Below are positions 17,464-63,990 of a stretch of 64,000 nucleotides of DNA, in pieces. How positions within the stretch are numbered: position 1 is the stretch's first letter; each line of letters starts with the position of its first letter. A program made the translations under genes and the position numbers. The stretch lies in assembly GCF_036203305.1 (NCBI RefSeq), contig NZ_CP108131.1, positions 558,001 to 622,000 on the forward strand, in the 5' to 3' direction. This DNA is from Streptomyces sp. NBC_00190. GTDB lineage: Bacteria; Actinomycetota; Actinomycetes; Streptomycetales; Streptomycetaceae. Below the pieces are notes generated by a model. The model did no database searches, was not told the DNA's origin, and worked only from the letters and a program-made list of their open reading frames with translations.

Positions 17464-17515
17464 TCCTGGAGCGCGTGCTGGACCGGCCGGTCAAGCCACG
17501 GACCCACATGCGCTC

Positions 17516-18113: not shown

Positions 18114-18124
18114 CCCGCTGACGG

Positions 18125-18168: not shown

Positions 18169-18199
18169 TTCGGGTCCGCCACTGCCCGGGAGGAAGTGC

Positions 18200-18800: not shown

Positions 18801-18886
18801 TACCGGAAATGGAACGCCGCGCGTGCTCAGGGCCGGGCCGCTCTTGCGAAGCGACCCGGCCCCGTAGGCGTAGCGTTTGCCCGGGA

Positions 18887-19309: not shown

Positions 19310-19437
19310 GAGCGCTTTCCCTTCCCGTCAGTGTTCGGTCACCGCGAGATCACACAGCACTCGCGATCAGGATGTCAACTTGTCCCACACAAAGCCGAGT
19401 TGAAGCCCGCCGGCCAGCGGAGCAGGCGGGCAGCCCG

Positions 19438-46186: not shown

Positions 46187-46873
46187 TCAGGCCGGGACGC
46201 CCGCCAGGTGGTGCCAGCCGTGCAGGGCGGCCTCCGCCATCAGGTCCGGGTGGTCGCCGACGACGACCGGGTGACCGACGAGGCGGAGAAGCCCCAGGTC
46301 GGAGACGTGGTCGCCGTAGGCGTGGCACTCCTCGGAGGCGATGCCGCGCTCGGACAGGAGCTCTCGGGCGGCCCGAGCCTTGGCGTCGCCGATCATCGTC
46401 GTCAGCACTTCCCCGGTGTACACCCCGTCCTGGATCTCCGGGCGCGTGCACAGCACCACGTCGGCACCGACGTGGGCGGCCACCGGATCCAGAGCGGCGG
46501 CGAAGGAGCCGGACACGAGGACGGTGGCCAGCCCCCGCTCCCGGTGGGCCGTGAGCGCTTCGAGGACGTCCCGGTGGAAGAAGCCGCCCTGCCGCAGGTG
46601 CTGTGCGAACCATGCCCGGCCGACGGACTCCGTCTGCTCGGCCTGGTAGCCGGCGAATCGCCGGTAGAAGATCCGATTGCCCTCTTCCCGGGGCATGCCG
46701 GGGCGCAGCAGGTCGCGGGCGTCCTGACGGAGCCGCTGCTGTTCCTGTGGGGTGTGCCCGACGGCGTTCAGGAAGAAGTCGTAGAAGTCGAACATGGTCT
46801 TGACGGTGGTGAGCGTCTCGTCGACGTCGAAGAACGCGACGGCGTGCGTGGTCGTCGGCAGTGCCGTGGTCAC
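46187..46873 (-). CDS. HAD-IB family phosphatase
   Basis: 228 residues from the GTG at 46873 (CGGAG upstream). Catalytic motif FFDVDETLTTVKTMFDFYDF near residue 14; second motif VLVSGSF; third motif YGDHVSDLGLLRLVGHPVVV. It is the SerB/phosphoserine phosphatase-like group that hydrolyses small phosphate esters. It is adjacent to an AfsA-family gene; in gamma-butyrolactone synthesis an intermediate carries a phosphate that must be removed, so a role in that step is plausible but unproven. A polypurine tract precedes it. Confidence 0.9.
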   Translation of the reverse strand: MTTALPTTTHAVAFFDVDETLTTVKTMFDFYDFFLNAVGHTPQEQQRLRQDARDLLRPGMPREEGNRIFYRRFAGYQAEQTESVGRAWFAQHLRQGGFFHRDVLEALTAHRERGLATVLVSGSFAAALDPVAAHVGADVVLCTRPEIQDGVYTGEVLTTMIGDAKARAARELLSERGIASEECHAYGDHVSDLGLLRLVGHPVVVGDHPDLMAEAALHGWHHLAGVPA

Positions 46874-46889
46874 GGGGAACTCCGGAAGC

Positions 46890-46939
46890 AGGGGGGAAAG
46901 GGGAAAAGGGAAAGGCGAAGGGAAAGGGGAAAGGGAAGG
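46890..46939 (+). repeat. Polypurine tract (G/A-only runs)
   Basis: Two nearly uninterrupted purine runs, 46890-46914 and 46916-46939, broken only by a C, of the GGGGAAAAGGGAAAGG type. They lie between the AfsA-family gene and the HAD-IB start on the cluster's minus-strand transcript, so the RNA there is a C/U-rich stretch. Confidence 0.75.
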
Positions 46940-46991
46940 CGGAGTGCAGGGGACGGCCTGGCGGGCCGACGGGGGCGGGCAGATGGAGGGC

Positions 46992-47996
46992 TCAGCCCAG
47001 CGCCACGTGTACCTCGGCCACCGTCTCGTCCTGCTGGACGGCGCTCATGCGGAAGGCCCCCCGGCTGCCGTCTTCCTCGCGTGCGGCGGTCAGGTGCACC
47101 GGGGCGTCCAGTTCGGCGAACTTCAGGAAGCGACCGTGCAGCCGCAGCACGCGTGCGGCGTCGGTCTCCGGCGTGGCGGTGTCCTGCGGGCCGAGCAGCA
47201 GGGCGCACTGGCGGGCCGCCTCGCTGAAGACCATGGCCGGGACGTGGTCGTAGGGGTGGTCGTACATGCTGCGGTTGCGGTACGTACGGGGGCTGAGACG
47301 GGCGACGAGGGCGGTGAGGTTCGCCGGGTCCGCCTGTACGGCGTCGAGGACGGTGTTCACCGGGTCGAGCCGGCGCACCCGGGCCGGGTCGACCGGCGCT
47401 CCGGCGGGCTCGGCGGGCAGGGTGAACGCGGTGGGGACGGTGGTGCCGCGCTGCATGCGGCGCAGCGCGTGGTACTGGTCGGTGGGGGTGCAGTTGGTGT
47501 CCATGGTGAGCCGGCCCAGGGGGCGGCCGTCGAGCGTGAGGTCCATGGCGAAGGCCAGTCGGCGCAGCCGCCCGCCGCGCCGGCCGCGCTGGGTGACCTC
47601 CGCGTCCATGCGCAGTTCCCCGGGCCGATCGCCGCATCGCAGCGCCTCCGGATCGGTGATGTCCAGCGTCCAGGACGTGACCATGAACGTGGTGTCGCGG
47701 GGCACCGCCTCGAAGACGTGCGCGGAGTAGGTGACCGCCTGGCGGCAGCTCTCCAGGACGAGCAGCGGGTCGTGGAAGCTCCGCCCCGGCACGTGGTCGC
47801 GGAAGTATGCGTGAGACAGGGGCAGTTGGGCTGCGGCGGTGAAGACGCCCTCGCCGGTGGCGACGGCATCGGTGAGGAACACCTCGGACAGGGCCCACCG
47901 GTGGACGAGCGAGCGGGACACGGTCCGGTCGTATGCGGGGATGGGGGTGGCGGTGGGGGTGGGGCTGCTGGGCGCGTCCAGGACGGAGGCTTCCAC
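46992..47996 (-). CDS. AfsA/ScbA-family butenolide synthase (A-factor biosynthesis hotdog protein)
   Basis: 334 residues from the GTG at 47996 (AAGGAAG upstream). Two hotdog repeats: SRSLVHRWALSEVFLTDAVA, FHDPLLVLESCRQAVTYSAH, then RSMYDHPYDHVPAMVFSEAA RQ and FLKFAELDAPVHLTAAREE. These are the AfsA signatures, including the HDP/DHP segments at both repeats. AfsA enzymes condense a beta-ketoacyl thioester with dihydroxyacetone phosphate on the way to gamma-butyrolactone signals. Here it lies in a run with a type II ketosynthase pair and an ACP, which could supply the acyl group. No ArpA-type TetR receptor is adjacent. Confidence 0.9.
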   Translation of the reverse strand: MEASVLDAPSSPTPTATPIPAYDRTVSRSLVHRWALSEVFLTDAVATGEGVFTAAAQLPLSHAYFRDHVPGRSFHDPLLVLESCRQAVTYSAHVFEAVPRDTTFMVTSWTLDITDPEALRCGDRPGELRMDAEVTQRGRRGGRLRRLAFAMDLTLDGRPLGRLTMDTNCTPTDQYHALRRMQRGTTVPTAFTLPAEPAGAPVDPARVRRLDPVNTVLDAVQADPANLTALVARLSPRTYRNRSMYDHPYDHVPAMVFSEAARQCALLLGPQDTATPETDAARVLRLHGRFLKFAELDAPVHLTAAREEDGSRGAFRMSAVQQDETVAEVHVALG

Positions 47997-48023
47997 GATG
48001 ACTTCCTTTCGGATCAAGGGCGT

Positions 48024-49220
48024 TCAGTGCGCGGCGGCGCTGCCGCTCGGTGAGGTGACGGCGGGCGTGGCTGCACGCCCCTTGCGTTCCGCTGCCACGC
48101 CGAGGCCGGCGAGGAGGAGTCCGGCGAGGGTGACGAGGGCTCCGGCCCAGTTGAGGGCGGGGTAGCCGAGGCCGGCGTCGATGATCCTGCCGCCTAGCAG
48201 CGGGCCCGCGGCGTTGGCGAGGTTGAATGCGGCGATGTTCGACGCCGAGGCCAGCGTGGGGGCGCCGTCGGCCTTGGCCATGATGCGCATCTGAAGCGGG
48301 GAGATGGTGGCGAAGGTGGCCGCACCGAAGAGGAAGACGGTCACGCAGGTGGCCGCCTTGTCGTGCACCGTGAAGGTGAACGCCCCGAGGACGAGGGTGA
48401 GCAGCGCCAGCGCACCGCACATGGCGCTCCTGGGGGTGCGGTCCGCGATCCGGCCGCTGATCAGGTTGCCGACGAACATGCCGACGCCGAAGAGCACCAT
48501 GATCAGGGTGACGGCGTTGTCGGTGAAACCGGTGACCTGGGTGACCATTTCGGCGATGTAGGTGTACGAGGTCATGACGCCGCCGAAGCCGAGCACGGTG
48601 GTGAGCAGGACCAGCAGTACCTGCGGGCGGCGCAGCACCCTCAGTTCGGAGCGCAGCCCGGTGCCCTCGGGTGCCGGGGTCCGGGGCACGAGCGAGGCGA
48701 TGCCCGCCAGGCCCACCGCGGCGAAGAGGGCGACCATCCAGAATGCCCAGCGCCAGCCGAAGTGCTGGCCGATGAAGGTGCCCGCCGGGACGCCGAGGAT
48801 CGTGGAGAGGGTGAGACCCGCGGCGACCATCGACACGGCGCGGCCCTTGCGGTCTTCGGAGACGAGATCGGAGGCGACCACCATCGCGACACCGAAGAAC
48901 GCGCCGTGGGCGAGGGCGGAGAGCACCCGGCCCGCCATGAGCAGCCCGTAGGTGGGGGCGAGGGCGGACAGAACCGTTCCGGCGAGGAAGAGCAGCATGA
49001 GCCGGATCAGCAGGCTCCTGCGTTCGGTGCGGGCGCACAGAACGGTGAGGCCGGGGGCGCCGATGACGACGCCGAGCGCGTACCCGGACACCAGAAGTCC
49101 CGCGGTGGGGATGGAGACGGAGAGGTCGGCTCCGATGTCGGGGAGGATCCCCGCGATGATGAACTCGGCGACTCCGATGGCGAAGCCGCTGAGGGACAGG
49201 GCGATGACGGCAATGGGCAC
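48024..49220 (-). CDS. MFS transporter (AraJ-like efflux)
   Basis: 398 residues from the GTG at 49220, eight bases after AGGAG. Twelve predicted membrane helices; helix 1 opens MPIAVIALSLSGFAIGVAEF, and the loop 2-3 motif is LCARTERRSLLIRLM. This is the DHA1 drug-efflux/sugar group. It is in line with the AfsA and aldo/keto reductase genes, so it likely exports the cluster product or confers self-resistance. Confidence 0.9.
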   Translation of the reverse strand: MPIAVIALSLSGFAIGVAEFIIAGILPDIGADLSVSIPTAGLLVSGYALGVVIGAPGLTVLCARTERRSLLIRLMLLFLAGTVLSALAPTYGLLMAGRVLSALAHGAFFGVAMVVASDLVSEDRKGRAVSMVAAGLTLSTILGVPAGTFIGQHFGWRWAFWMVALFAAVGLAGIASLVPRTPAPEGTGLRSELRVLRRPQVLLVLLTTVLGFGGVMTSYTYIAEMVTQVTGFTDNAVTLIMVLFGVGMFVGNLISGRIADRTPRSAMCGALALLTLVLGAFTFTVHDKAATCVTVFLFGAATFATISPLQMRIMAKADGAPTLASASNIAAFNLANAAGPLLGGRIIDAGLGYPALNWAGALVTLAGLLLAGLGVAAERKGRAATPAVTSPSGSAAAH

Positions 49221-49275
49221 GGCTGTGCTCCTGGGTTGGGCTTCGGCAGAACTGGAGGGGTGGGCGCGGCCGCGG

Positions 49276-50343
49276 TCAGGGCTGGATGTCTCCGGGCAGG
49301 TTCCGGTCGCCGGCGATCGCGCGCATGTGCCAGTACGGGTAGGGCGCGGGCCGGTCGCTCGCCGCGTCCAGGCGCTGCCGCTCCTCGGTGGTGAGCTCCC
49401 ACTCGACGGTGCCGAGGTTGTCCTGGAGCTGGCCGGGGCGGCTGGCGCCGAAGACCACGGACGTCACGGCGGGCTTGCTCAGCACCCAGTTGAGGGCGAC
49501 CTGGGCGATCGAGACGTTGCGGTCGCGGGCGATGCCGTCGAGCACCTCCACCACGTCGTAGGCCTGCTCGCGATCGGTGAGCGGGGCGATGGAGGCGGGG
49601 CCCTCGTGTGCCAGACGGAAGTCCGCGGAGACTTCCTGGCCGCGCCGGTACTTGCCGCTGAAGAAGCCGCCCGCCAGCGGGCTCCAGACGGTGATGCCCA
49701 CGCCCTGGTCGGCGGCGGCGGGCACGATCTCGTGCTCCAGTTCGCGGGCTCCCAGGTTGTAGTAGCCCTGGTAGGCGGCGAAGCGGGCGAGGTTGCGGTG
49801 GTCGGAGATGTCGAGTGCCTTCATCAGCTGCCAGCCGGGGAAGTTCGAGCAGCCGATGTAGCGCAGCTTTCCGGCGCGCACCAGGTCGTCGAGGGCCCCG
49901 AGAGTTTCTTCCAGGGAGGTCCGCGGGTCGGTGCCGTGGAGGTAGAGGACGTCGATGTAGTCGGTGCCGAGGCGGCGGAGACTGGCCTCGACGGCACGGA
50001 CCAGGTGGTGCCGGGAGGAGCCGGCCGCGTTGATGTCGTCGGGGTCGGTGCAGAAGCGGGCCTTGGTGGCGATGACGGCCTTGTCCCGGCGGTCCTTCAG
50101 TGCCAGGCCGAGCAGTTCCTCGCACTCGCCGTCCCGGTAGACGTCGGCGGTGTCGAAGAAGTTGACGCCCGCGTCGTGGCAGGCGTGGACGAGGCGGACG
50201 GCGTCGTCGCCCGCGTTGACGCCGAACTGGGACCAGTTCGCACCGGGCAGCCCGCCGAACGCGCCGGGGGTGCCGAGCGTGGCCGCCCCGAAGGACAGCT
50301 CGGAGACCTGGAGGCCGGTTCGGCCGAGGTAGCGGTAGCGCAT
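49276..50343 (-). CDS. Aldo/keto reductase
   Basis: 355 residues from the ATG at 50343. Catalytic tetrad: Asp and Tyr in FFDTADVY, Lys in VIATKARFC, His in LYLHGTD. NADPH-binding C-terminus VVFGASRPGQLQDNLGTVEW. It is a potassium-channel-beta-like/YakC-type AKR, reducing an aldehyde or ketone. Placed between the transporter and the ketosynthase genes of the cluster; could reduce a keto or butenolide intermediate. Confidence 0.92.
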   Translation of the reverse strand: MRYRYLGRTGLQVSELSFGAATLGTPGAFGGLPGANWSQFGVNAGDDAVRLVHACHDAGVNFFDTADVYRDGECEELLGLALKDRRDKAVIATKARFCTDPDDINAAGSSRHHLVRAVEASLRRLGTDYIDVLYLHGTDPRTSLEETLGALDDLVRAGKLRYIGCSNFPGWQLMKALDISDHRNLARFAAYQGYYNLGARELEHEIVPAAADQGVGITVWSPLAGGFFSGKYRRGQEVSADFRLAHEGPASIAPLTDREQAYDVVEVLDGIARDRNVSIAQVALNWVLSKPAVTSVVFGASRPGQLQDNLGTVEWELTTEERQRLDAASDRPAPYPYWHMRAIAGDRNLPGDIQP

Positions 50344-50404
50344 GGGGAGGGGATGTCCTTACGTGGTGGTGGATCGGTGGATCGTTGGGACGGGGCGGGG
50401 AGCC

Positions 50405-51547
50405 TCAGACGCCCGGGCGCGGATGCAGCAGGACGGCGCAGCCGACCGAGCCGTCCGGGCCGACGGAGGTGACGAGGGCGGCCCGCTCGCCGCGGGTGTC
50501 GAGGTGGGGGTCGTGCCAGCGGGCGACGACGGCGGCGACCTGGAGGGCGACGCTCGCTCCGTGGGTCTCGCCGAGCACCTCCTGCACACGCAGCAGATGC
50601 CGGCCGTCACGGCCGTCGAGCGCCGCGCGCAGGGCGCGTTCCTCCACGGCCGCCCAGCCCCGCCGGCCGGCCGCACCAGGTGCGACCACGGCGACGTCGG
50701 CGGCGTCGACACCGCTGCGGGCGAGGGCGTCCCGTACGCAGGTGGTGAGGCGGCGTGCGACGGCGAGGGGCCCGCCTGCGGCGAACCCGGTCGCGACGGC
50801 CATGACGAGGGCGAGGGGGCTCTCGCCGGTGGCGCCGTCCGGGGCCGTCCGCAGGGAGAACACCGCGGCGCCTTCGCCGAGTGCGGTGCCCGCTGCGAGC
50901 GATCCGGCCCGGTGCCAGGCCCAGGCGCTCTGGGGCGACAGTTCCTCCACGCCTCCGGTCAGCAGCCGGTGTGCGTGGCCGGCCACCAGGGTGTTCCGGG
51001 CGTATCGCAGTGCGTGCAGTGAGGCCAGCGGTCCACCGGAGACGGTGGCGTTCGCCTCGGTGAGCCCGTGCCGGATGGCCGTGCGACCTGCCGTCGCGTT
51101 CATCAGGGTGCCCGGAAAGGCCGACGGGTTCACCATGTCGGGGCGTTCCTGGACGAAGGTGTCCCGGGTGAAGCGGCCGACACCGCCGCTGCTTCCGACG
51201 GCGCTGCCGAGGACCACGCCGGTCCCGGAGCGGTCGGCGAGCGGTTCGAGTGCCAGGGTGCAGGCGGCCATGCCCAGTTGTTCGGCCCGCGTCAGCCGGT
51301 TCAGTCCCTTGGTGCCGAGGAGGTCGGCGGCCGGGAAGTCCGCCGGGCGCAGGGTGAGGGGCGGGTAGTTCTCCGCCTCGCGGGCGGCGGGCGGCTGTCC
51401 GCCGGCCGCCGTGCCCTGCCGCAGGGCGTCGGCGAGGGTTTGCAGTCCCACGCCGGCGCTGCTGACCACGCCGGCGGTTTCCAGTGCGAGGGGGACCACC
51501 GTCCGCGGGGTGACGGCCGGACTCTGCTGGTCGTCCACGATGCTCAT
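50405..51547 (-). CDS. Chain length factor-like ketosynthase (KS-beta)
   Basis: 380 residues, starting four bases inside the upstream ketosynthase stop (ATGA overlap), so translationally coupled. Thiolase-like fold, but the active-site Cys position is Ser160 in ATVSGGPLASLHALRYA, and the usual His motifs are absent. This marks a non-condensing partner such as the type II PKS chain length factor, here without the typical active-site Gln. It should pair with the ketosynthase to form a KS-alpha/beta heterodimer that sets chain length. Shorter and more divergent than classical CLFs. Confidence 0.85.
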   Translation of the reverse strand: MSIVDDQQSPAVTPRTVVPLALETAGVVSSAGVGLQTLADALRQGTAAGGQPPAAREAENYPPLTLRPADFPAADLLGTKGLNRLTRAEQLGMAACTLALEPLADRSGTGVVLGSAVGSSGGVGRFTRDTFVQERPDMVNPSAFPGTLMNATAGRTAIRHGLTEANATVSGGPLASLHALRYARNTLVAGHAHRLLTGGVEELSPQSAWAWHRAGSLAAGTALGEGAAVFSLRTAPDGATGESPLALVMAVATGFAAGGPLAVARRLTTCVRDALARSGVDAADVAVVAPGAAGRRGWAAVEERALRAALDGRDGRHLLRVQEVLGETHGASVALQVAAVVARWHDPHLDTRGERAALVTSVGPDGSVGCAVLLHPRPGV

Positions 51548-52779
51548 ACGGTGAACTCTCCGAAGATCGTGACGGCGTTGTTCCCGCCGAAGGCGAAGCC
51601 GTGGTTCTGCACGATGCGCGGCCGGGCGGCCCGGGCCTGGCCCTGGACGCAGTCGAGTCCCGGTCCCAGGTCCGGATCCACCTGGCGAAGCGTGGCGCTC
51701 GGCGGAAGGAAGCCTTCGTACAGGGCGGCACAGCACACCAGGGCCCCGAAGCCGGCTGCCGCCCCCATCGTGTGCCCGAGCATGGATTTGATCGAGCTGA
51801 TCGGCGGGGGGCCGTCGGTGAACACCTCGCGCACGGCGGCCGTCTCCGTGGAGTCGTTCGCCCTGGTGCCGGTGCCGTGTGCGCAGATGTAGTCCACGTC
51901 GCCGGGCTTGATGCGGGCATGGTGGTGGGCGCGCCGGATGCACTCGGCGATCGACGCGGCGTCCGGGTTGGTCATGTGCCGGGCGTCGCAGGTCATGCCG
52001 TACCCGAGGACCTCGGCGTAGATCCGGGCCCCGCGTGCCAGCGCCGTGTCGAGGGGTTCCAGGAGCAGCGCCGCACTGCCTTCGGCGGTGACGATGCCGT
52101 CGCGGTGTTCGTCGAAGGGGCGGGGGACGTCGGCGGCGAGGGCCCCGAGGCGGTGGAAGCCCGCGTGGGTGGCCCGGTTGGAGGCGTCGGCTCCGCCGCA
52201 CAGTGCGGCGTCCGCCTCTCCGGCGCGGACCAGGTCGTAGCCGTAGCCGATGGCGTAGTTGCCGGCGGCGCAGGCGGTGCCGAGGGTGATGGACTCGCCG
52301 CTCAGGTCGAGTTCGGCGCTGACGGCGGCGGCGATCCGGCCGGCGTCGGCCTGGCCGGCGAGCCCGGGGTCGAGCGCGGCGAGGCCGTCGTCGACCCATT
52401 GCCGGGTCAGCTCTTCCAGTACTTGTGACTCGCCGTTGGTCGTTCCGAAGCAGCTCGCGGTGGTTCCCGCGGACAGCACGGCCGGATTCACTCCGGCGTC
52501 GGTGACCGCCATCCGCGCTGCGGCGGCGGCGAAGCGGCCGCTGCGCCCCCACTGGGCTGGGTCGGTTCCCCGCAGGTGCATCTCCGCGTGGAAGCCGCGC
52601 ACTTCACCGGCGAGGGTGCGGTCGAAGCCCGTGCCGTCGAACTGTCCGATCGGGCCGATGCCGCTGCGCCCGGCCCGGATCGCCGCAGTGAGCGCGCGGG
52701 CGCCGAGCCCGAGGCTGCTCACCGCGCCGAGCCCGGTGACGACGACCCGGCGCCCGGTGGCGGAGGCCTCGTCAGACAC
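51544..52779 (-). CDS. Beta-ketoacyl-ACP synthase II-type (KS-alpha)
   Basis: 411 residues. Complete catalytic set: Cys170 in LGTACAAGNYAIGYG, His300 in CAHGTGTRAND, His335 in SMLGHTMGAAAGF, and the closing GFAFGGNNAVTIF. FabF/KS-alpha family. It overlaps both neighbours: eight bases with the ACP upstream and four bases with the chain length factor downstream. It is the condensing enzyme of the cluster, extending an acyl chain on the ACP with malonyl units. Confidence 0.93.
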   Translation of the reverse strand: MSDEASATGRRVVVTGLGAVSSLGLGARALTAAIRAGRSGIGPIGQFDGTGFDRTLAGEVRGFHAEMHLRGTDPAQWGRSGRFAAAAARMAVTDAGVNPAVLSAGTTASCFGTTNGESQVLEELTRQWVDDGLAALDPGLAGQADAGRIAAAVSAELDLSGESITLGTACAAGNYAIGYGYDLVRAGEADAALCGGADASNRATHAGFHRLGALAADVPRPFDEHRDGIVTAEGSAALLLEPLDTALARGARIYAEVLGYGMTCDARHMTNPDAASIAECIRRAHHHARIKPGDVDYICAHGTGTRANDSTETAAVREVFTDGPPPISSIKSMLGHTMGAAAGFGALVCCAALYEGFLPPSATLRQVDPDLGPGLDCVQGQARAARPRIVQNHGFAFGGNNAVTIFGEFTV

Positions 52780-53044
52780 CCAGCGCCTCCGGGGTGCTGT
52801 GCTTCTCGACCAGGAGGTAGGCGCTCGGCAGTTCGTCGAGCTCGGTGAGGTCCTCCTGCGGAATCCGGATGCCGAGGTCGCGCTCGAAGCGCGAGAAGAT
52901 CTCGATGATCAGCAGCGAGTCCGCGTCGAAGTCGTCGGCGAAGCTGCTCTCGTCGGTCAGGGCGTCCACGTCCACTTCGAGTACGTCCGCGACGATGGCC
53001 CGCACCTGCGCGCGCCGGTCCTCGGATATCGCGATGTCACTCAT
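52772..53044 (-). CDS. Acyl carrier protein
   Basis: 90 residues, acidic, four-helix ACP. The phosphopantetheine serine is Ser43 in DADSLLIIEIFSRFE. It is the first gene of the minus-strand biosynthetic operon, followed with overlap by the ketosynthase. The IIEIF helix after DSL is typical of carriers used by type II ketosynthases, not primary-metabolic ACP. Confidence 0.93.
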   Translation of the reverse strand: MSDIAISEDRRAQVRAIVADVLEVDVDALTDESSFADDFDADSLLIIEIFSRFERDLGIRIPQEDLTELDELPSAYLLVEKHSTPEALGV

Positions 53045-53323
53045 CTGATTGCCCTTCGATTCACTGGCTTTGGGAGGCCGGAACGGGGACGACTACGTGT
53101 CCCCCCTACGGCCTGAACCAGCCAATCCCAGGTCCAGAGGCAGCGGCAAGCACTCCGAAAGTGACATGGGCGGTGCCTCCGCAGGGGTCCGTGCCGTCTG
53201 CCCATGGGGGTGGTCGGCACCGGGTGCGGGGGTTTCCGGCCGGTTTTTGCCCGCACTTTCATCGGGGCGCCCGAGCATCCCTGCGATGAAGACGATCCGA
53301 TGTGCGGACAGGTGGTGCGGGGG

Positions 53324-54379
53324 ATGAGACCGACCGAGCCGGTGGGCATAGTGACGGCCGGGCTGTGGCTGCCCGAGGGGCGGTCCCGCGCCTCGGACGC
53401 GGTCACCGCGGGGCGGTTGCGGCGGCGCGACGCGGCGGCCCTGGGCCATGAGAGCGTTCCGGACGCGGGGGCGGTCGCCCCGCCCGACGCCGCGGTCCTC
53501 GCGGCCCGCGGCGTACTGGACGCGGCGGGCCTGGAAGCCGGCGAGCTGGATGTGCTGGCGCACGCGTGGATGTACTACCAGGGGCACGACCTGTGGTCGC
53601 CCGCCCACTACGTCGCCCGCTGTCTCGACGCCCTGCGGGCCCTGCCGGTCGGCATCCAGCAGGTCTGCAACGGCGGCGCCGCCGCCATGGGGCTGGTGAT
53701 GGCGTGGCTCGCCTCGTCGGACCCGGCCCCCTCGGCGCCGCCGCGGCTGGGCCTGGTGACGACGGGAGACCGCTTCGCCGAGCCCGGCTTCGACCGCTGG
53801 GCGGGCGACTACGGAGTGGCGTACGGCGACGCGGGTACGGCCGTTCTGCTCCGTCGGCCTGCCGCGGACGGCGACGTGTTGCTGCTGCGGTCGGTCGCGA
53901 CGGTCGCGGACCCCCTGCTGGAGGAGATGCACCGCGGCACGGATCCCTTCTCGCCGGTCGCCCGCGGACATCGCGACCAGGTCGACATGCGCGCCACCAA
54001 GCGGGCCTACCTGCGCACTCACGGCACGCTGCCGTTCGCCGCTTCCAACCGCCGGGCCATTCGCACGGTCGTCGCACAGGCACTGGCCGACGGTGGCATG
54101 GACGGACGCGACCCGCGTCTGACCCATGTCGTGCTGCCCCGGTTCGGCGCCAAGACGCTGGCCGAGTCGTGGATCCCGGTCCTGGAGGAGCAAGTGGGAC
54201 GGGCGCAACTGCTCGACCTCGGCCGGGAGACCGGGCATCTGGGCGCGGGCGACGCGGTCGCGGGACTCGCCGACCTGGTGGCGCGGGGCCTGCCCGCACC
54301 CGGGTCCAGCGCCCTCGTCTTCAGCGCGGGGGCCGGCTTCACCTGGTCGTGCCTGCTGGTGGAGTCACCGGCGCGATGA
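53324..54379 (+). CDS. KAS III-like (FabH superfamily) enzyme
   Basis: 351 residues from the ATG at 53324; alternative ATG at 53300. The nucleophile Cys115 is in QQVCNGGAAAMGL. At the positions of the FabH His and Asn, the sequence reads VVLPRFGAKTLAESW and RETGHLGAGDAVAGLADL, so the PHQAN and GNTSAAS motifs are replaced (His to Arg, Asn to His). Such KAS III-like proteins in polyketide clusters may prime the chain or act as acyltransferases rather than condensing. It is divergent from the ACP gene and followed by a ketoreductase. Confidence 0.85.
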   Translation: MRPTEPVGIVTAGLWLPEGRSRASDAVTAGRLRRRDAAALGHESVPDAGAVAPPDAAVLAARGVLDAAGLEAGELDVLAHAWMYYQGHDLWSPAHYVARCLDALRALPVGIQQVCNGGAAAMGLVMAWLASSDPAPSAPPRLGLVTTGDRFAEPGFDRWAGDYGVAYGDAGTAVLLRRPAADGDVLLLRSVATVADPLLEEMHRGTDPFSPVARGHRDQVDMRATKRAYLRTHGTLPFAASNRRAIRTVVAQALADGGMDGRDPRLTHVVLPRFGAKTLAESWIPVLEEQVGRAQLLDLGRETGHLGAGDAVAGLADLVARGLPAPGSSALVFSAGAGFTWSCLLVESPAR

Positions 54380-54439
54380 CCTTCGCGCCGTTCACGAGAC
54401 CGGGCGGGAGCGCCCGGTGTCCCAGAAGGAGAGAAACAC

Positions 54440-55144
54440 ATGTCACGTTCCGTCTTCGTCACCGGCGGCAACAGGGGGATCGGTCTGGCCGTGGCGCGGG
54501 CCCTGGCCGCCGACGGCGACCGGGTCGCGGTCGGCCACCGGACCGGAACGCCCCCGGACGGATTCTGGGGGGTGCGCTGCGACGTGACGGACGACGCCTC
54601 GGTCAGGGCCGCGTTCGCCGCCGTCACGGAGGAACAGGGGCCCGTCGAGGTGCTGGTGGCCAATGCGGGTATCACCCGGGACACTCTGCTGCTGCGGATG
54701 GACGACGCCACGTTCGACGAGGTGCTGGAGACGAATCTGAAGGGCGTCTTCCGTACCGTGCGGGCCGCGGCGAGCGGCATGCTCGCCGCCCGCCGGGGCC
54801 GGATCGTGCTGGTGTCGTCCGCGCTGGGCTTCCTGGGCTCCCCGGGGCAGACCAACTACGCCGCGGCGAAGACCGCGCTGTTGGGCTTCGCGCGCTCGCT
54901 CGCCTGGGAACTGGGCTCCCGTGGCATCACCGTGAACCTGGTTGCGCCGGGGATCATCGACACGGACATGACGAGCGGGCTGACCGAGCGGCGCATGAAG
55001 CAGGTCATGGGGATGACTCCGCTCGGCCGGCCCGGTACGGCCGAAGAGGTCGCCGCGGCGGTCCGCTTCCTCGCCTCGGAGCAGGCCGGGTACGTGACCG
55101 GCGCGGTCCTGCCCGTGGGCGGCGGCATCGGCATGGGTATCTGA
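54440..55144 (+). CDS. FabG-like 3-oxoacyl-ACP reductase (ketoreductase)
   Basis: 234 residues of the SDR fold. NADPH site FVTGGNRGIGLAVARALA, NAGITRDTLLLRM, catalytic Ser-Tyr-Lys in VSSALGFLGSPGQTNYAAAK, and the C-terminal PGIIDTDMT...GYVTGAVLPVGGG. It reduces beta-ketoacyl-ACP. A GGAG ribosome site lies upstream of the ATG. With the KAS III-like gene it makes a two-gene plus-strand operon facing the ACP/KS/CLF run; both likely act on the same acyl chain. Confidence 0.93.
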   Translation: MSRSVFVTGGNRGIGLAVARALAADGDRVAVGHRTGTPPDGFWGVRCDVTDDASVRAAFAAVTEEQGPVEVLVANAGITRDTLLLRMDDATFDEVLETNLKGVFRTVRAAASGMLAARRGRIVLVSSALGFLGSPGQTNYAAAKTALLGFARSLAWELGSRGITVNLVAPGIIDTDMTSGLTERRMKQVMGMTPLGRPGTAEEVAAAVRFLASEQAGYVTGAVLPVGGGIGMGI

Positions 55145-55280: not shown

Positions 55281-56006
55281 CTACCGCAGGACGGCGCCCG
55301 GCAGGCTGTGCGGGCCCCGGAGTACGACGTCGGGCAGGCTGCGGGCGTCCCGTAGTCCGCGAGGGGCGGTCACGGGAGGAGCGATCAGACCGCGCTGCAC
55401 CGCCTTGTTGGCCGCCTCCACCCGGGACCCCGCGTCCAGCTTGTCGAAGATGTTTCGCATATGGCGTTTCACGGTGCCCTCGGCGATGTCGAGTCGGCGT
55501 GCGATGCGGTAGTTGCTCAGTCCGCTGGCTGCGAGCTCCATGACCTGCGTCTCGCGGACCGAGAGCGGCGCGATGTCCGCGGGTGCGGGAGCGGCCAGAC
55601 TCCGGGCGGAGAGCGAGATGGTGACCCGGCTGCCGCCGGCGCACACGTCGCGCACCGTGCCGGCCAGAGACTGGTGGCTCACGGTCTTGTGCAGGAACCC
55701 CCGGATGCCGAGCGGCAGCAGCGACTGGACCAGCCCCGGGTCGTCATGCATGGTCAGCACCATGACCTGGGTCTCCGGCGCGGCCTGGCGCAGGTGCCGG
55801 ACGGTGGCGGCCGGGTCCTGGTTGCCGGGCATTTCGATGTCCAGGAGGAGTACGTGGGGCCGGAGTTCGGCGGCCAGGCGCACGGTCTCGGCGGCGTTGC
55901 CGGCCACGGCCACCACGTCGAAGTCCTCCTCCGCGTCGAGGAGTTCCGCCAGCGCGTCACGCAGCAGGGTGTGGTCGTCGGCTATCAGGATGCGAATGAG
56001 TTCCAT
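55281..56006 (-). CDS. LuxR/NarL family response regulator
   Basis: 241 residues from the ATG at 56006 (GGGGGAGAC upstream). Receiver with Asp56 in LLLDIEMPG, Thr in VLTMHDD and Lys in GFLHKTVS; LuxR HTH LSVRETQVMELAASGLSNYR followed by IARRLDIAEGTVKRHMRNIF (about 155-205). It overlaps the kinase gene upstream by 22 bases. Its position between the biosynthetic and regulatory blocks suggests pathway control. Confidence 0.93.
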   Translation of the reverse strand: MELIRILIADDHTLLRDALAELLDAEEDFDVVAVAGNAAETVRLAAELRPHVLLLDIEMPGNQDPAATVRHLRQAAPETQVMVLTMHDDPGLVQSLLPLGIRGFLHKTVSHQSLAGTVRDVCAGGSRVTISLSARSLAAPAPADIAPLSVRETQVMELAASGLSNYRIARRLDIAEGTVKRHMRNIFDKLDAGSRVEAANKAVQRGLIAPPVTAPRGLRDARSLPDVVLRGPHSLPGAVLR

Positions 56007-57163
56007 GTCTCCCCCGGATGCGGCCCGTGGCCGGTGGTCAGCGGCACCCACAGCAACAGCCGGGTGCCCTTTCGCGGAGCGCTGAGCAGCAGGCAGCGCC
56101 CGCCCATCTGTGTCACCCGCTCACGCATGGCCGTCAGTCCGCCTCGGTGTTCGCGGCGGGTGTCGGGGTGGAAGCCCCGCCCGTCGTCGGTGGCCTGGAC
56201 GTCGACGCGGTGGTGTGAGATCCGTAAGCCGATCGTGACGGCCTGCGGATCAGCGTGGGTGAAGGAGTTGCGCAGGAATTCCCCGACGACGAGGACGATC
56301 TCCCGGCGGTGGGCGGGCGGCACCCGCGACTCGTCACCCTCCACCGTCAGCCGCACGGGAACTCCGGCCAGGTTGAGCCGGTCCGCGTGGCGGCGCAGCG
56401 ATTCCTCGAGGCCGTCCTGCGCGGCGCTGCGGGTTTCGCGCAGTCCGGTCACCAGGCGGCGCGTCAGGTCGGTGGCCTCCCGCAGCGCGTCCTGGACCGC
56501 CGCGAGGTGCCGCTGCGTTCCCGGATCGTCCGAGCCCGCGGTCCGGGTCTTGAGCTGGTGGAGCTCCAGGTGGCGGAAGGCCAGGGCCAGGCTGCCGCCC
56601 AGGTGGTCGTGGACGTCGCGGGCCAGGCGGCCGCAGCAGTCGTCGCCGGGCGCAGGTCGGTGCGCCCGCAGCCGGGTCTCGTAGCCGTGGGCCGCGGCCC
56701 GGGTGTGGCGGGCGGACACCCGGCGCACGATGTCCGCCGCATGTTCGGCGTCCGGCTCCCGGCCCGCCGCGTCCACCGTCGCGACGAGTGCGTCCGTGAG
56801 CCGGTCCATGGCGGACAGGCAGCCGGCGAGCCCGAGGTCCGCGGCGGCCCATCGGGCGCCGAGCTCGCGGAAGGACGCCTCCGCGGGTGCGTGGTCCAGG
56901 TGTCCGGGCGTCCGGGGCCGGGCGGTCGCGTCGAGGGCGCGGGCGCACTCCGCGAGGAGCAGTGCGGCCCGGGCGCGGGTGTCCCGCCACAGTTCCGGGA
57001 GGTCCACGAGCGGATGGCCCTCGGCCGTCAGGGCGTCCGCGTAGCGGGCCAGGACGTCGGCGGCGGCTCTCCTCAGGCGGGGGCCGGGCCGGTCCGGGGC
57101 CGGATCCGCGCGGTCCGCCGTACGGTGCGCGTCGTCATGTTCCGGCGCAGAGATGTCTCCCAC
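55985..57163 (-). CDS. Soluble NarL-type histidine kinase
   Basis: 392 residues from the GTG at 57163, five bases after GGGGAGG. No membrane helices: residues 1-180 form a helical sensor of unknown type. Histidine motif ARDVHDHLGGSLALAFRHLE (His195), HATPase_c with VLVVGEFLRNSFTHADPQAV and DDGRGFHPDTRREHRGGLTA. It is the HisKA_3 kinase for the response regulator downstream, translationally overlapped with it. A cytosolic signal is likely. Confidence 0.9.
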   Translation of the reverse strand: MGDISAPEHDDAHRTADRADPAPDRPGPRLRRAAADVLARYADALTAEGHPLVDLPELWRDTRARAALLLAECARALDATARPRTPGHLDHAPAEASFRELGARWAAADLGLAGCLSAMDRLTDALVATVDAAGREPDAEHAADIVRRVSARHTRAAAHGYETRLRAHRPAPGDDCCGRLARDVHDHLGGSLALAFRHLELHQLKTRTAGSDDPGTQRHLAAVQDALREATDLTRRLVTGLRETRSAAQDGLEESLRRHADRLNLAGVPVRLTVEGDESRVPPAHRREIVLVVGEFLRNSFTHADPQAVTIGLRISHHRVDVQATDDGRGFHPDTRREHRGGLTAMRERVTQMGGRCLLLSAPRKGTRLLLWVPLTTGHGPHPGETWNSFAS

Positions 57164-57340
57164 CCAAGCCTCCCCGAATCGGGCCCCCGTGCCGACCCGC
57201 CGACTGTTGACGGCTGCCGGCACACACCCGCTTGTTCATCTCAGCTAACGATCCGACCGTAGGTGCGGGCCTGCGACCTGTCAACTACGATGGGGCGCCG
57301 TCACCCTGCTGGTTCACGCTGGCGGACAGAAGGAGTGTTG

Positions 57341-57820
57341 ATGCCCCCCTTGGCCGACAAGGTCGACAAACTCTTCAGGACCATCCGCACCAACGGCCGG
57401 GAGTACACCTACGAGGAGGTCGCGCGTGGCTGCAGCCAGCTGAGCGGCGGCACGTTCTCCAAGACGTACGTCTGGCAGCTGCGCACCGGACAGCGCGACA
57501 ACCCCACCAAGCGGCATCTGGAGGCGCTGGCGGCGTTCTTCCGTGTGCCCGCCGCGTACTTCTTCGACGACGACACCGCCGAGCGGGTCGACGCGCAGCT
57601 CGCCATTGCCTCGGCGATGGGCAACGCCGAGGTCCGTGACATCGCCCTGCGGGCCATGAGCATGGACGACTCCGGCCGCAAGCATCTGGCGCGCATCATC
57701 CGCGAGGTCAGTCTGCTGCACTCGGCGGCCTCCGCCCGCGGGCAGGCGGGCCGCGCCGACGGGCGGGCTGACGAGCCGGGGGACAGAGAAGCCGACGGCA
57801 CTGCGGGCGCCGGGGAATAG
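57341..57820 (+). CDS. XRE-family transcriptional regulator
   Basis: 159 residues from the ATG at 57341 with GGAG upstream. HTH-3 domain (about 5-72): EYTYEEVARGCSQLSGGTFS KTYVWQLRTGQRDNPTKRHL. The tail (about 75-159) is basic and low-complexity. First gene of a three-gene run with an ImmA/IrrE-like protease and a MAB_1171c-type membrane protein, a set seen repeatedly in actinomycetes. In Bacillus ImmR/ImmA, the protease cleaves the XRE repressor; an analogous switch is inferred here. Confidence 0.9.
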   Translation: MPPLADKVDKLFRTIRTNGREYTYEEVARGCSQLSGGTFSKTYVWQLRTGQRDNPTKRHLEALAAFFRVPAAYFFDDDTAERVDAQLAIASAMGNAEVRDIALRAMSMDDSGRKHLARIIREVSLLHSAASARGQAGRADGRADEPGDREADGTAGAGE

Positions 57821-57827
57821 ACCGCCG

Positions 57828-58373
57828 ATGCGATTCCTACAGCGACGTCGGCGCCGGTCCGGCCTCCAGGCGCTGCGCCGGGAGAGCCGGCAGCGGCTGG
57901 CCTCCTTCGGGCTGCCCGAGTCCTACGACCTCATGACCCTGTGCGACCACCTCAGCGGCTCCCGGGGCCGGCCCATCCATCTGCTGCCCATGCCCCTGGA
58001 CGCGTCCGGTCCGTGCGGGCTGTGGCTGGCCTTCTCGGACGCCGACTACGTCGTCTACGAGCAGCACACCAGCCGGCACCACCAGGAGCACATCATCGCC
58101 CACGAGCTGGCGCACATGCTGTGCGGCCACCGCAGCGGAACCGCGGACTCGCCGGCCGTCGCCACGCTCTTCCCGGACCTCGACCCGTCGCTCGTGCAGG
58201 ACCTGCTGTGCCGGGACAACTACTCCGACACCCAGGAGCGGGAGGCGGAGGTGATGGCGTTCCTCCTCGGTGAAGGCCTGCGCTCGCAGCAAGGCACGGC
58301 AGCCGCCGAGACGGACGGGGTACTCGGCCGCATCCAGGGCTCGCTCGACTGGCGCCGCCGGGACCGGACATGA
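57828..58373 (+). CDS. ImmA/IrrE-like metallopeptidase
   Basis: 181 residues. Zinc-protease motif AHELAHMLCGH with His92-Glu93-x-x-His96 (IIAHELAHML). It follows the XRE gene by seven bases and overlaps the next gene by four (ATGA). The likely job is regulated cleavage of the upstream XRE protein. Confidence 0.88.
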   Translation: MRFLQRRRRRSGLQALRRESRQRLASFGLPESYDLMTLCDHLSGSRGRPIHLLPMPLDASGPCGLWLAFSDADYVVYEQHTSRHHQEHIIAHELAHMLCGHRSGTADSPAVATLFPDLDPSLVQDLLCRDNYSDTQEREAEVMAFLLGEGLRSQQGTAAAETDGVLGRIQGSLDWRRRDRT

Positions 58374-59554
58374 ACAGTGTCCGCTACCCGCTGGGCGCGC
58401 TGGTCTGCTGGCTGGCGTTCGCCCGCACCCTCCCGCCGGTCCTGCGGCGCGGACCGCAGCCGGCGCTCGTCGCCCTGTGCGCGTCGTTCGGCTGCCAGGG
58501 CATGTACCTCGCCATGTCGACCCCCAGCCACCTGACCGGAAAGCTCTTCGGCACGGTCACCTGGTACAACGTCTCCGTCCAGATGTGGATCATCGCGGCG
58601 ATCGCCTGCCAGCAGGTGCTGCTCATCCACTGGCTGCACCCGCGGGAGGAGGCCCGCGTCCGCGCGCGCCGCCGGCTTGCCCTGATGGCCTGTGTGCCGT
58701 TGGCGATGGCCGTCCTCTTCGAGCTGGCCGTGCTGCACGGACCTCCCCGGAACAATTTCGTACACCCGCGGGAGCAGCCGTACTTCGTGGCCTACCAGGT
58801 CGTCTACCTCACGGCCTTCGCCCTCGGAAAGGCCGTGGTGGCGAAGGCGTGCTGGTTCTACGCCCGGCTGACCGAGGACGTCTGGGTACGGCGTGGACTG
58901 CGGACGGCGGCGGTCGGCGCGTGCCTCGACCTCGTCTACTCCCTGGGGCGGTTCGCGGACGTGTTCCTCGTGCACCGCGGATGGGACCCGTCCGCCTGGG
59001 CGGACGTCACGCGGACCTGTCTGACGGTGGGGCTGACCCTGAACACCGTCGGATGGACGGCGCCGTTGTGGGGCTCGCGGGTGCGGGCGGTACAGGCCTG
59101 GTGGGCCGACTACCGCCGCTTCCGCCGGCTGCGCCCGCTCTGGTACGCCCTGTACCGGGCCCACCCCGAGACGTCCCTGCAGCCCGCTCCCCGCAGCGAT
59201 CTCTTCGCCCTGTGGGACCTGCGTTTCCGCCTGCACCGGCGGGTGATCGAGATCAGGGACGGCTGCCTTGCCCTGGGCGGGCAGGTTGCCCCCGGACTGG
59301 CCCCCGCCCCGGGGCCGGACGGGAGCGAGGAGGAGCGGGCGCGGTGGGAGGCGGCGCGCATCGCGGCCGCCCTTGCCGCGCGGCCCGGGCGGGACGGGAG
59401 GGGGGACCGGGTGGACGACGCCGGCCCCGTGTCGGTGATGAGCCCGGGCGACCTGGACTTCTCCGCCGACGTGCGGTGGCTGGTCCAGGTCTCCCAGGCC
59501 TTCGCCTCCGCTCCGGTCGCGCGGCCGGAGCCCGACCGCGCGACCGTCCCGTAA
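58370..59554 (+). CDS. MAB_1171c-type membrane protein
   Basis: 394 residues. About seven predicted membrane helices from residue 5 to 235 (ALVCWLAFARTLPPVL, then LVALCASFGCQGMYLA, and so on), followed by a soluble helical domain (about 245-394) with YALYRAHPETSLQPAPRSDL FALWDLRF and DLDFSADVRWLVQVSQAFAS. This fits the MAB_1171c family, described as putative transporters. Its translational coupling to the ImmA gene suggests a sensor or ligand-transport partner of the protease/repressor switch. Confidence 0.88.
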   Translation: MNSVRYPLGALVCWLAFARTLPPVLRRGPQPALVALCASFGCQGMYLAMSTPSHLTGKLFGTVTWYNVSVQMWIIAAIACQQVLLIHWLHPREEARVRARRRLALMACVPLAMAVLFELAVLHGPPRNNFVHPREQPYFVAYQVVYLTAFALGKAVVAKACWFYARLTEDVWVRRGLRTAAVGACLDLVYSLGRFADVFLVHRGWDPSAWADVTRTCLTVGLTLNTVGWTAPLWGSRVRAVQAWWADYRRFRRLRPLWYALYRAHPETSLQPAPRSDLFALWDLRFRLHRRVIEIRDGCLALGGQVAPGLAPAPGPDGSEEERARWEAARIAAALAARPGRDGRGDRVDDAGPVSVMSPGDLDFSADVRWLVQVSQAFASAPVARPEPDRATVP

Positions 59555-59560
59555 CCGTCC

Positions 59561-61555: not shown

Positions 61556-63088
61556 CTACCGAACCGGGGCAGTTTGCCCGGCCAAATCCCGGACCGCCGA
61601 GTGGAGTTCGTCACGAAACGGGTCGCTCAGCGCGGCAACCGTGCCGTCGGGCCGCACGAGAACGGCACACGGGCGGCTCAGCCGCAGCAACGAGTGGCCG
61701 ATATTGTTCGTATCGGAAATCACTGTGACGCGGACGCTCTCGTGTGCCTTCCGAAAGATATCGGCCAGGTCCTCGACGTCCCTGCGGTGGCTTCCCGTTC
61801 CGGGGAAGAGCAGCAACAGCGGCGCGGGGGCGCCCAGCTCGTCCCGCAGCCAGCGCCCGCGCTCCGCGTCGAGCGGCACGTCCGGCAGTCGCATGCCGGT
61901 CCGCAGATGGCCGGCCCGCTGGCGCGGCCCCGGATGCGCGAAGGACAACTGCGCCTGGCGCGGCACGACGACGCGGTTCAGGACACCGCTGCGTCCCGCG
62001 GCCCCCAGCGCCGCGTCCCGGGCCCGCGCACGCCAGCCGCTCATCATCCACATGCGCGTCTGGAGGTCGGTGTCGCCGACCACGGCCCGCGCGACCCTGA
62101 GCCGTTCCTCCTCCCACTGCGCCAGTGCCTCGTCGCCCCACCGGCCCTCGCGCACCCCGGCGAGGCGCCAGGCCAGCGAAGCCGCGTCCTCGATACCGGT
62201 GTTCAGCCCTTGACCGCCCGCCGGGCTGTGGATGTGCGCGGCGTCGCCCGCCAGCAGCACCCGGCCGACCCGCAGCCTGTCGGCCATCTTGCGGTGCACC
62301 CGGAACACTCCCGTGCGCTGCTCACCGATCAGCTCGATCGGCACCGGGCACCGCTCCGAGGCCGCGCGCTGCACGGCATCCCGGGGGTCGTCCACCGCCA
62401 GGTCGGGCGCCGCGCTCACGAACGTCCGGTACATGCCGCCCGGCAGCCCCACCACCACCAGCACTCCGGCGGGCGACATGAAGTAGTGGACCTCGTCATG
62501 GGCCAGCGAGGTACGGACCGGACCGTCCGTGAGCAGGAACTGCTGCGGATACGAACTGCCCCGGAAGGGCACTCCCAGCACCTCGCGGACCCTGCTGTGC
62601 GCGCCGTCGCAGCCGACGACCCAGCCGACGCGTTCCGTCACCCGGCCCCCGGCCGTCTCCAACTCGGCGTTCACCCCGGCGTCGTCCTGGGTGAAGGAGG
62701 TCAGGGACGTCCCGAACTCGATCGTCCCTCCCAGCCCTCGGAAGGTGTCCCGCAGGACCGCTTCCGTCTCCTGCTGCGGAATCGACAGGGCGTACGGGTA
62801 GCGCGTGCGGCGCATTCCGCCGAACGCCAGACGGGCGACACGCTCCCCCTGCGAGTGGTAGTTCTGCGCGCGCAACACCACGCCGCGCCGGTGCAGTTCG
62901 TCCGCGGCACCGAACCGGGCCAGGGCCTCGATGCCCCGTGGCCACAGGGCGATCGCCTTGGAGTGGGGGTTGGGACGCTCGGAGCGGTCGACGACGCGAA
63001 CCGGCACGCCTCGCCTGAGGAGTTCGATCCCCGTGACGAGCCCCACGGGGCCCGCTCCGACGATGAGCACCTGCGACGATTCGGTCAT
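61556..63088 (-). CDS. Class A FAD-dependent monooxygenase (PHBH fold)
   Basis: 510 residues. GXGXXG in VLIVGAGPVGLVTGIELLRR, DG motif VVGCDGAHSRVREVLG, and the FAD-binding GDAAHIHSPAGGQGLNTGIE. A C-terminal thioredoxin-like domain of about 120 residues (APAPLLLLFPGTGS onward) matches the aromatic polyketide hydroxylase subgroup. It would hydroxylate or epoxidise a pathway intermediate. First gene of the minus-strand tailoring operon and divergent from the SARP gene. Confidence 0.93.
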   Translation of the reverse strand: MTESSQVLIVGAGPVGLVTGIELLRRGVPVRVVDRSERPNPHSKAIALWPRGIEALARFGAADELHRRGVVLRAQNYHSQGERVARLAFGGMRRTRYPYALSIPQQETEAVLRDTFRGLGGTIEFGTSLTSFTQDDAGVNAELETAGGRVTERVGWVVGCDGAHSRVREVLGVPFRGSSYPQQFLLTDGPVRTSLAHDEVHYFMSPAGVLVVVGLPGGMYRTFVSAAPDLAVDDPRDAVQRAASERCPVPIELIGEQRTGVFRVHRKMADRLRVGRVLLAGDAAHIHSPAGGQGLNTGIEDAASLAWRLAGVREGRWGDEALAQWEEERLRVARAVVGDTDLQTRMWMMSGWRARARDAALGAAGRSGVLNRVVVPRQAQLSFAHPGPRQRAGHLRTGMRLPDVPLDAERGRWLRDELGAPAPLLLLFPGTGSHRRDVEDLADIFRKAHESVRVTVISDTNNIGHSLLRLSRPCAVLVRPDGTVAALSDPFRDELHSAVRDLAGQTAPVR

Positions 63089-63171: not shown

Positions 63172-63990
63172 GTGCTTGTATTCCAGCCGGTGAACGGCGA
63201 TGCGCACGGTGTCGCCGACGGACTGACGGAGGTGCTGGCAGCAGTGGCCGGCCAGATCTGTTTCTCGGTGCTCGGAGCTCTCGGCGTCTCCACGGGCACC
63301 ACCCCACACACCCTGCGCGGCCCGATGGTGAACAAGGTGATGGCCCTGCTCCTGCTGCGGGCGGGCCAGGTGGTGGAGGTCGACACCTTCATCGACGAGC
63401 TGTGGGAGGAGCGGCCCCCGCGCTGGGCGCTCAGCACTCTGCGCACGCACGTCTACCATCTGCGCCGCCAGCTCGACGAGGTCCTGGAGTTCCCCGCCCA
63501 ACAGCTGTTGCACACCCGCGTGTCCGGCTATCTCCTGGACATCGACCCCGAGCAGCTGGATGCCACACGGTTCACGCGGCTGTTCCGGGACAGCGAGCGG
63601 CTGCTCGCCCTGGACCGGCCGGACGAGGCCGTCGCCGCCTGCCGTGAGGGGCTGGCGCTGTGGCAGGGCCGCGCCCTGTCCACGGTGCGCCCGGGGCGGG
63701 TCCTCGCCGGTCACGTCCAGTACCTGGAGGAGTTGCGGGTACGGGCCCACCAGGTGCGCGTCGAGGCGGAGATGCGCCGCGGCCGCCACACCCACCTCGT
63801 ACCCGAACTGCGCGACCTGGTCGCCGCGCACCCCTTCAACGAGTGGTTCCACCACTCGTTGATCGAGTCCCTGCGGGAGTCGGGCCGACGCGGTGAGGCG
63901 CTCAGCGCCTTCCAGGCGCTCAGGACCATGCTCCGGGACGAGCTGGGTCTCGAACCCGCCGACGTTCCGTCGTGGAGCGTGCCTGCGTGA
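63172..63990 (+). CDS. SARP family transcriptional activator
   Basis: 272 residues at most; the start is uncertain, and GTG at 63172 and in-frame GTGs further down are possible. The OmpR-like winged helix (about 28-125, ICFSVLGALGVSTGTTPHTL and ALSTLRTHVYHLRRQLDEVL) is followed by the BTAD domain (about 130-270, DATRFTRLFRDSERLLALDR). This is the small SARP type that activates antibiotic clusters by binding direct heptameric repeats. It lies divergent from the monooxygenase operon and likely activates it and the ketosynthase genes. Confidence 0.93.
   Translation: MLVFQPVNGDAHGVADGLTEVLAAVAGQICFSVLGALGVSTGTTPHTLRGPMVNKVMALLLLRAGQVVEVDTFIDELWEERPPRWALSTLRTHVYHLRRQLDEVLEFPAQQLLHTRVSGYLLDIDPEQLDATRFTRLFRDSERLLALDRPDEAVAACREGLALWQGRALSTVRPGRVLAGHVQYLEELRVRAHQVRVEAEMRRGRHTHLVPELRDLVAAHPFNEWFHHSLIESLRESGRRGEALSAFQALRTMLRDELGLEPADVPSWSVPA

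Follow-up and report, generated by a model that had tools for sequence, protein, structure and literature searches.

What does an enzyme of the AfsA family do when its gene lies inside a type II ketosynthase cluster: does it make a signal, or does it release the chain that the cluster builds? The question is raised by a stretch of 64,000 nucleotides from Streptomyces sp. NBC_00190 (the window; positions 558001-622000 of the 8.63 Mb contig NZ_CP108131.1, in a two-contig genome of 8.9 Mb), where a first-pass annotation had observed an AfsA gene within a type II ketosynthase cluster at 46187..55144, an observation that we confirm. We consider it probable that these genes form a small type II cluster for an aliphatic polyketide, with AfsA-type chain release, and that its product would be an end metabolite and not a classical receptor-bound autoregulator; the first reading of the locus as a whole is partly supported. 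The arrangement appears to be more than chance because 13 of the 14 informative related loci (core loci, below) pair AfsA with a ketosynthase (KS), a chain length factor (CLF), an acyl carrier protein (ACP) and a β-ketoacyl-ACP synthase III-like enzyme (KASIII), against none of 40 sampled AfsA genes with KS and CLF.

The gene assignments first proposed were borne out by profiles and by matches in the PDB, and all nine genes are present with the order and strands first noted, as judged from the list of open reading frames (ORFs) and from Pfam/NCBIfam profile scans. The minus-strand run reads, from 53044 down to 46187, ACP, KS, CLF, aldo-keto reductase (AKR), major facilitator superfamily (MFS) transporter, AfsA and HAD-IB; the KASIII-like gene and FabG are divergent from it.

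46187..46873, minus strand: HAD-IB hydrolase (TIGR01490, 144 bits, cut-off 98; all four HAD-IB motifs kept in the core loci)
46992..47996, minus strand: AfsA-type double hot-dog enzyme (PF03756, 135 bits, cut-off 24, two hot-dog stretches)
48024..49220, minus strand: MFS transporter (PF07690, MFS_1; NF033135 Cmx/CmrA, 372 bits, cut-off 400)
49276..50343, minus strand: AKR (PF00248, Aldo_ket_red)
50405..51547, minus strand: CLF, with a KS fold lacking the active-site Cys (best PDB match 6kxd_B, 118 bits; PF00109 at only 31 bits)
51544..52779, minus strand: KS (PF00109 and PF02801; best PDB match 6kxd_A, 375 bits)
52772..53044, minus strand: ACP (PF00550, PP-binding; Ser43 in DADSL)
53204..54379, plus strand: KASIII-like enzyme of the DpsC/CerJ type (PDB 4xs7, 207 bits; CerJ, 125 bits)
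54440..55144, plus strand: FabG-type ketoreductase (Pfam/NCBIfam profiles)

A protein search found at least 75 AfsA relatives among the matches listed, 51 of them with identities of 51-93% and 24 that do not exceed 47%; with its own genome included, the window's AfsA has counterparts at 64% or more in 7 of 392 Streptomyces genomes and at 60% or more in 3 of 394 genomes of the class. One further search of relatives recovered exclusively those with shared exact peptides. Counting each genome once, there are 15 core loci, from eight Streptomyces, two Nocardiopsis, Actinorugispora, Marinitenerispora, Allonocardiopsis, Amycolatopsis and one further genome, which we examined over 3.5 to 28 kb of flanking sequence, enough for the comparison in 14. 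Carriers of the core include S. eurocidicus and S. albireticuli. KS, CLF, ACP and KASIII all accompany AfsA in the 13 loci mentioned above, and in the fifteenth locus (3.5 kb flank) CLF and the end of KS are visible. A HAD gene adjoins AfsA in 14 of the 15, as HAD-IB in 13 and as HAD-IA in one, and in the last the contig ends after AfsA. The remaining genes are more variable: FabG (at 78% identity or more) and the response regulator each occur in 12 of the 15 loci, the histidine kinase in 11 (one truncated), and AKR (at 87% or more, one truncated) and the window-type MFS each in five, all Streptomyces. Pairwise distances of AfsA and KS are correlated (0.90 over 22 loci, with L131 left out; 0.85 over the 13 core loci; strain kinship not removed from either figure), which, as a comparison of sequences, shows joint inheritance and not function.

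The company kept by AfsA genes at large is different. As background we took 40 AfsA genes, best model scores first, out of about 65 listed from 41 Streptomyces genomes, excluding L139 (of the KASIII-plus-single-KS type), the window's own genome and any gene close to the end of a contig; regions of about 8 kb were considered on each side (less for L173 and L176), and two of the 40 genes (L157 and L170) had also been found by the search for AfsA relatives. An ScbR-like gene lies within 3 kb of AfsA in 31 of these 40, KS (at least 350 bits) together with CLF is near none, and a weaker KS is near three. A HAD gene within 3 kb is found for 6 of the 40, compared with the 14 of 15 core loci. Conversely, no ScbR-like gene was matched in the examined flanks of the 15 core loci, in agreement with the earlier claim that no ArpA-like receptor is nearby. 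The combination, first described as unusual, is indeed so in relation to signalling AfsA loci; it recurs, however, and has looser sister types.

The same division is seen in the phylogeny of the enzyme. Our AfsA tree holds 86 rows, after removal of duplicates and of fragments shorter than 230 residues; because the window's own proteins served as queries for its KS-CLF rows, the proportion of these rows is no guide to how abundant they are. On the tree, 2 changes are needed for the 35 receptor-linked rows (shuffled mean 27.5) and 4 for the 25 rows with KS-CLF (shuffled mean 21.8), with a support of 96/74 for the branch between the two sides. All 25 KS-CLF rows fall inside one clade of 29 (support 97/92), the other four being the degenerate locus G289 discussed below, two rows truncated where their contigs end and a short locus in which a KS adjoins AfsA. 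The window's AfsA lies outside the receptor-linked clade, a position consistent with the proposal of a metabolite rather than a signal, the product class itself being our inference.

The protein has the features expected of the family. Two PF03756 hot-dog domains score above the cut-off, and 12 polar AfsA residues, which may have a catalytic role, are kept in at least 84 of the 86 aligned rows, the window's included. On NF041195, the model for autoregulator synthases of the ScbA/BarX type, it scores 192.5, below the cut-off of 200; core relatives score 197 and 192, and L038 slightly exceeds the cut-off at 200.9. Two plasmid-borne AfsA paralogues of the same genome, both with ScbR-like neighbours, reach 327 and 329, and a fourth AfsA of the genome (L070) has neither an ScbR-like nor a KS/CLF neighbour. 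The AlphaFold2 model is a confident double hot-dog (mean pLDDT 91), whose top-ranked structural match is a mitoribosome protein. A protein containing both AfsA and HAD domains (P0051, 546 aa) was dropped as evidence for a fusion, as the end of its AfsA half looks frame-shifted.

The motifs of the chain-building enzymes agree with their assignments. By motif alignment the KS keeps Cys170, His301 and His336, and SGG replaces the Cys motif in the CLF. In the comparison with PDB entries, 6kxd is the best match of both. The ishigamide pair is entered as 6KXF in PMC7949117, and as 6kxd has the same sequence we take 6kxd to be the ishigamide KS-CLF. An aromatic type II polyketide synthase (PKS) was ruled out, the window KS scoring 177 bits to 1tqy (actinorhodin-type) compared with 375 to 6kxd. 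The cluster shares with highly reducing type II PKSs of the ishigamide type the closest KS and CLF, a discrete ACP and a ketoreductase; unlike them it is without a dehydratase, AfsA and HAD replace the known release partners, and its KASIII is DpsC-like. In the KASIII-like protein, Cys155, His345 and Asp350 correspond to the nucleophile, His and Asp of the family; its Pfam match is restricted to the C-terminus (29 bits), and its likeness to the DpsC/CerJ type consists in the two PDB matches listed above. Entry 4xs7 is the priming enzyme of the daunorubicin PKS, presumably DpsC; it has Ser where the window protein has Cys, and the context of the window cluster is not aromatic. A role in starter-unit selection is proposed by homology.

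The HAD protein of the window belongs to HAD-IB by both model score and motifs. A single HAD family for all loci was considered and rejected, since motif and BLAST checks separate HAD-IB from a HAD-IA type whose motif I reads DFGGV; the HAD profile of the locus survey mixed both subfamilies, and its bit scores are to be read accordingly. The HAD-IA type is a putative phosphatase.

We infer the following pathway, in all its five steps, from homology and gene conservation. The DpsC-like KASIII would select and load a short acyl-CoA starter, which KS-CLF would extend on the dedicated ACP while FabG reduces intermediate β-ketones, any dehydration or enoyl reduction being supplied by primary fatty acid synthesis; since the core has no dehydratase, the chain could be a short one, could carry hydroxyl groups or could be completed by the fatty acid synthase. 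AfsA would then act as a free-standing phosphorylated-butenolide synthase, joining the last β-ketoacyl-ACP to dihydroxyacetone phosphate (DHAP) and so releasing the chain, and HAD-IB would take off the phosphate. In this strain, AKR and a flavin monooxygenase could tailor the product and the MFS protein could export it or serve in self-protection. A 2-acylbutenolide, a butyrolactone or a furan would be expected, probably under the control of a Streptomyces antibiotic regulatory protein (SARP) and a two-component system. Two steps of this scheme had been suggested before, that the dedicated KS, CLF and ACP supply AfsA with its chain and that HAD-IB dephosphorylates the intermediate; the recurrent company of these genes is in favour of both, while supply and phosphatase activity themselves stay at the level of proposals.

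The proposed release step has direct precedent in the in vitro activity of the gladiostatin PBS domain and in the dependence of gladiofungin on its AfsA domain. With an ACP-PBS didomain of gladiostatin, a 3-ketobutyryl group was lost upon addition of DHAP, and a 3-ketooctanoyl thioester yielded the butenolide once phosphatase had been applied (PMC7756379); gladiofungin production ends when most of the AfsA domain is deleted (PMC7756420). What these trans-AT PKSs have in common with our proposal is an AfsA-family release of an ACP-bound β-ketoacyl chain and phosphatase genes in or near the cluster, but their AfsA is the terminal domain of a modular PKS, whereas the window encodes AfsA as a protein of its own, next to a type II KS-CLF and a discrete ACP. 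AfsA-type release from modular PKSs is already known, and its type II form would be a new variant. Autoregulator synthesis (AfsA/ScbA, or SabA with the phosphatase SabP and the dehydrogenase SabD) uses the same enzyme family with phosphatase and reductase adjoining AfsA (PMC6930871); its loci, by contrast, usually carry an ArpA/ScbR-type receptor and no KS-CLF. In a literature search of open-licence papers, we recognised none that describes AfsA inside a KS-CLF cluster.

Several observations weigh against an end-metabolite cluster with AfsA-type release. HAD-IB also adjoins five receptor-linked AfsA genes and is therefore no marker of end metabolites. S. morookaense (L103) has a separate pair of AfsA and ScbR genes some 10 kb beyond FabG, and in L038 (S. 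goshikiensis) an ScbR-like gene lies about 9 kb from the AfsA gene, the single one of its kind in the stretch examined. No dehydratase family was found among the core genes scanned with Pfam/NCBIfam. The neighbourhood comparison proposed earlier, for AfsA without KS in close relatives, gave one case among the 14 informative loci, G289, which keeps AfsA and HAD without KS, CLF, ACP and KASIII. It reads as a damaged copy because a single deletion fused histidine kinase to AKR and took out everything between them: a 426-residue ORF (L063 7413-8693; the same genome as L042) joins the start of the former to the end of the latter. Finally, in L114 (G035) the genes for KS, CLF, ACP, KASIII and FabG are present at 60-84% identity (33-84% with regulator and kinase included), and an acyltransferase (PF00698; L114 11481-12644, from G035:C4) occupies the position of AfsA and HAD; the chain-building set therefore does not need AfsA. 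The acyltransferase suggests that the final step was swapped while the rest of the cluster stayed much the same.

The alternative that survives best, although we consider it unlikely, is that AfsA makes an ordinary autoregulator controlling the neighbouring KS cluster, with an acyl chain from primary fatty acid synthesis and a receptor elsewhere in the genome. It is well established that AfsA genes often adjoin the clusters that they regulate, and both the five receptor-linked genes with HAD-IB and the ScbR-like genes in the surroundings of certain related loci (L038, L131, S. morookaense) are in its favour. In L131 (from G370:C12; L131 positions 6965-8044 and 17289-19998) we observed three AfsA ORFs, one with HAD, CLF and KS and two with ScbR-like neighbours. 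Against this alternative, the receptor in both L131 and S. morookaense has its own second AfsA, the window's AfsA and the 35 receptor-linked rows are placed on opposite sides of the tree, and its NF041195 score falls below the cut-off and far from the scores of the paralogues with ScbR-like neighbours.

That the AfsA-type protein is instead the dehydratase of the chain seems improbable to us. The nearest solved folds of its model include acyl thioesterases and PKS dehydratase domains, at modest TM-scores, and the missing dehydratase would be accounted for. HadA/HadB dehydratases are, however, present in the sister loci L119, L120, L122, L123 and L135 (not in the core), L119 and the AfsA-bearing L134 being two contigs of one genome, and AfsA is retained in L120, L122, L123 and L135 despite them. 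Furthermore, the residues common to signalling AfsA enzymes are kept, and the adjacent HAD would be left unexplained.

Slighter still are the prospects of a condensation with a sugar phosphate other than DHAP, e.g. the pentulose suggested in the cases of MmyD and AvrD. In methylenomycin biosynthesis a dedicated ACP (MmyA) and ketosynthase (MmyC) are likewise proposed to feed a butenolide-forming enzyme, MmyD, which would join acetoacetyl-MmyA to a pentulose and whose deletion abolishes the pathway products (PMC12593393). That paper, however, likens MmyD to AvrD and does not contain the term AfsA, the chain is a diketide, and the partner differs from that in our proposal; AfsA-family enzymes in the gladiostatin work use DHAP (PMC7756379). 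A chance adjacency of functionally unrelated AfsA and KS genes, for which AfsA with HAD alone in G289 and the KS set alone in L114 might be quoted, is the least credible of all, given the recurrence of the set across several genera of core loci and in a further clade of KS-CLF-linked AfsA, with no counterpart in the background.

The range first delimited, 46187..55144, is incomplete, judging from gene conservation: the response regulator and histidine kinase genes at 55281-57223 are retained along with most of the core. A flavin monooxygenase, a SARP and a phosphopantetheinyl transferase (PPTase) probably belong to the cluster as well; we count them in because S. morookaense (L103) has the monooxygenase beside FabG, followed by the SARP and then the PPTase.

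55281..56051, minus strand: NarL-type response regulator (PF00072 and PF00196)
55985..57223, minus strand: histidine kinase (HisKA_3 and HATPase_c)
61556..63088, minus strand: FAD monooxygenase, probable tailoring enzyme (PF01494; beside FabG in S. morookaense at 81%)
63172..63990, plus strand: SARP regulator, probable cluster member (BTAD; adjoins the monooxygenase in S. morookaense)
G000:C1:622099-622836, just beyond the window end: PPTase, probable cluster member

Within the core, the KS gene shares 8 bases with that of ACP and 4 with that of CLF. Our preferred starts are GTG at 47996 for AfsA and ATG at 51547, overlapping the KS stop, for CLF; the KASIII ORF opens at 53204, but homologues start near its residue 41 and the true start is probably near 53324. 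The MFS protein is below the cut-off for Cmx/CmrA chloramphenicol efflux and we claim no resistance. Between kinase and monooxygenase, a block of about 4.3 kb (57263-61542), conserved in close relatives and not assigned to the cluster, contains two small ORFs that match nothing in Pfam, alongside genes for a DUF1611 protein and for a membrane protein of the DUF6545/MAB_1171c kind. The 260 kb contig encodes a second KS (G000:C2:142023-143219), which shares 50% identity with that of the window.

Beyond the core, the association takes looser forms. The S. goshikiensis plasmid locus L038 and L048 carry AfsA, HAD-IA, FabG, SnoaL, KASIII, ACP, KS, CLF and acyl-CoA carboxylase genes, a second group has AfsA, HAD-IA, FabG, SnoaL, ACP, KS and CLF, and a third type combines AfsA and KASIII, mostly with a single, more distant KS, and with a monooxygenase, an AKR and a HAD. 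A plasmid cluster (L190; NZ_CP107949.1, 33895-58815) was seen to contain AfsA, two KASIII, KS, HAD-IA and a CoA-transferase, and then a separate ScbR/ScbA pair.

We give an even chance to the broader idea that actinobacterial AfsA proteins include a second large branch that makes no signals and instead serves dedicated type II ketosynthases (either KS-CLF or a single KS plus KASIII) as free-standing release enzymes, usually with a HAD of one of the two subfamilies, and that this branch defines an unexplored class of butenolide end products. We judge the more interesting part to be this broader picture, in which many AfsA proteins go with ketosynthases rather than with receptors and form a large branch. 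Public annotation often names such genes 'gamma-butyrolactone biosynthesis protein', which invites the signalling reading, and the split between receptor-linked and ketosynthase-linked AfsA offers a simple genomic rule. If the idea is true, loci filed as hormone systems would be clusters that make butenolides, and engineering would gain a useful part in a free-standing enzyme that releases chains from a discrete ACP.

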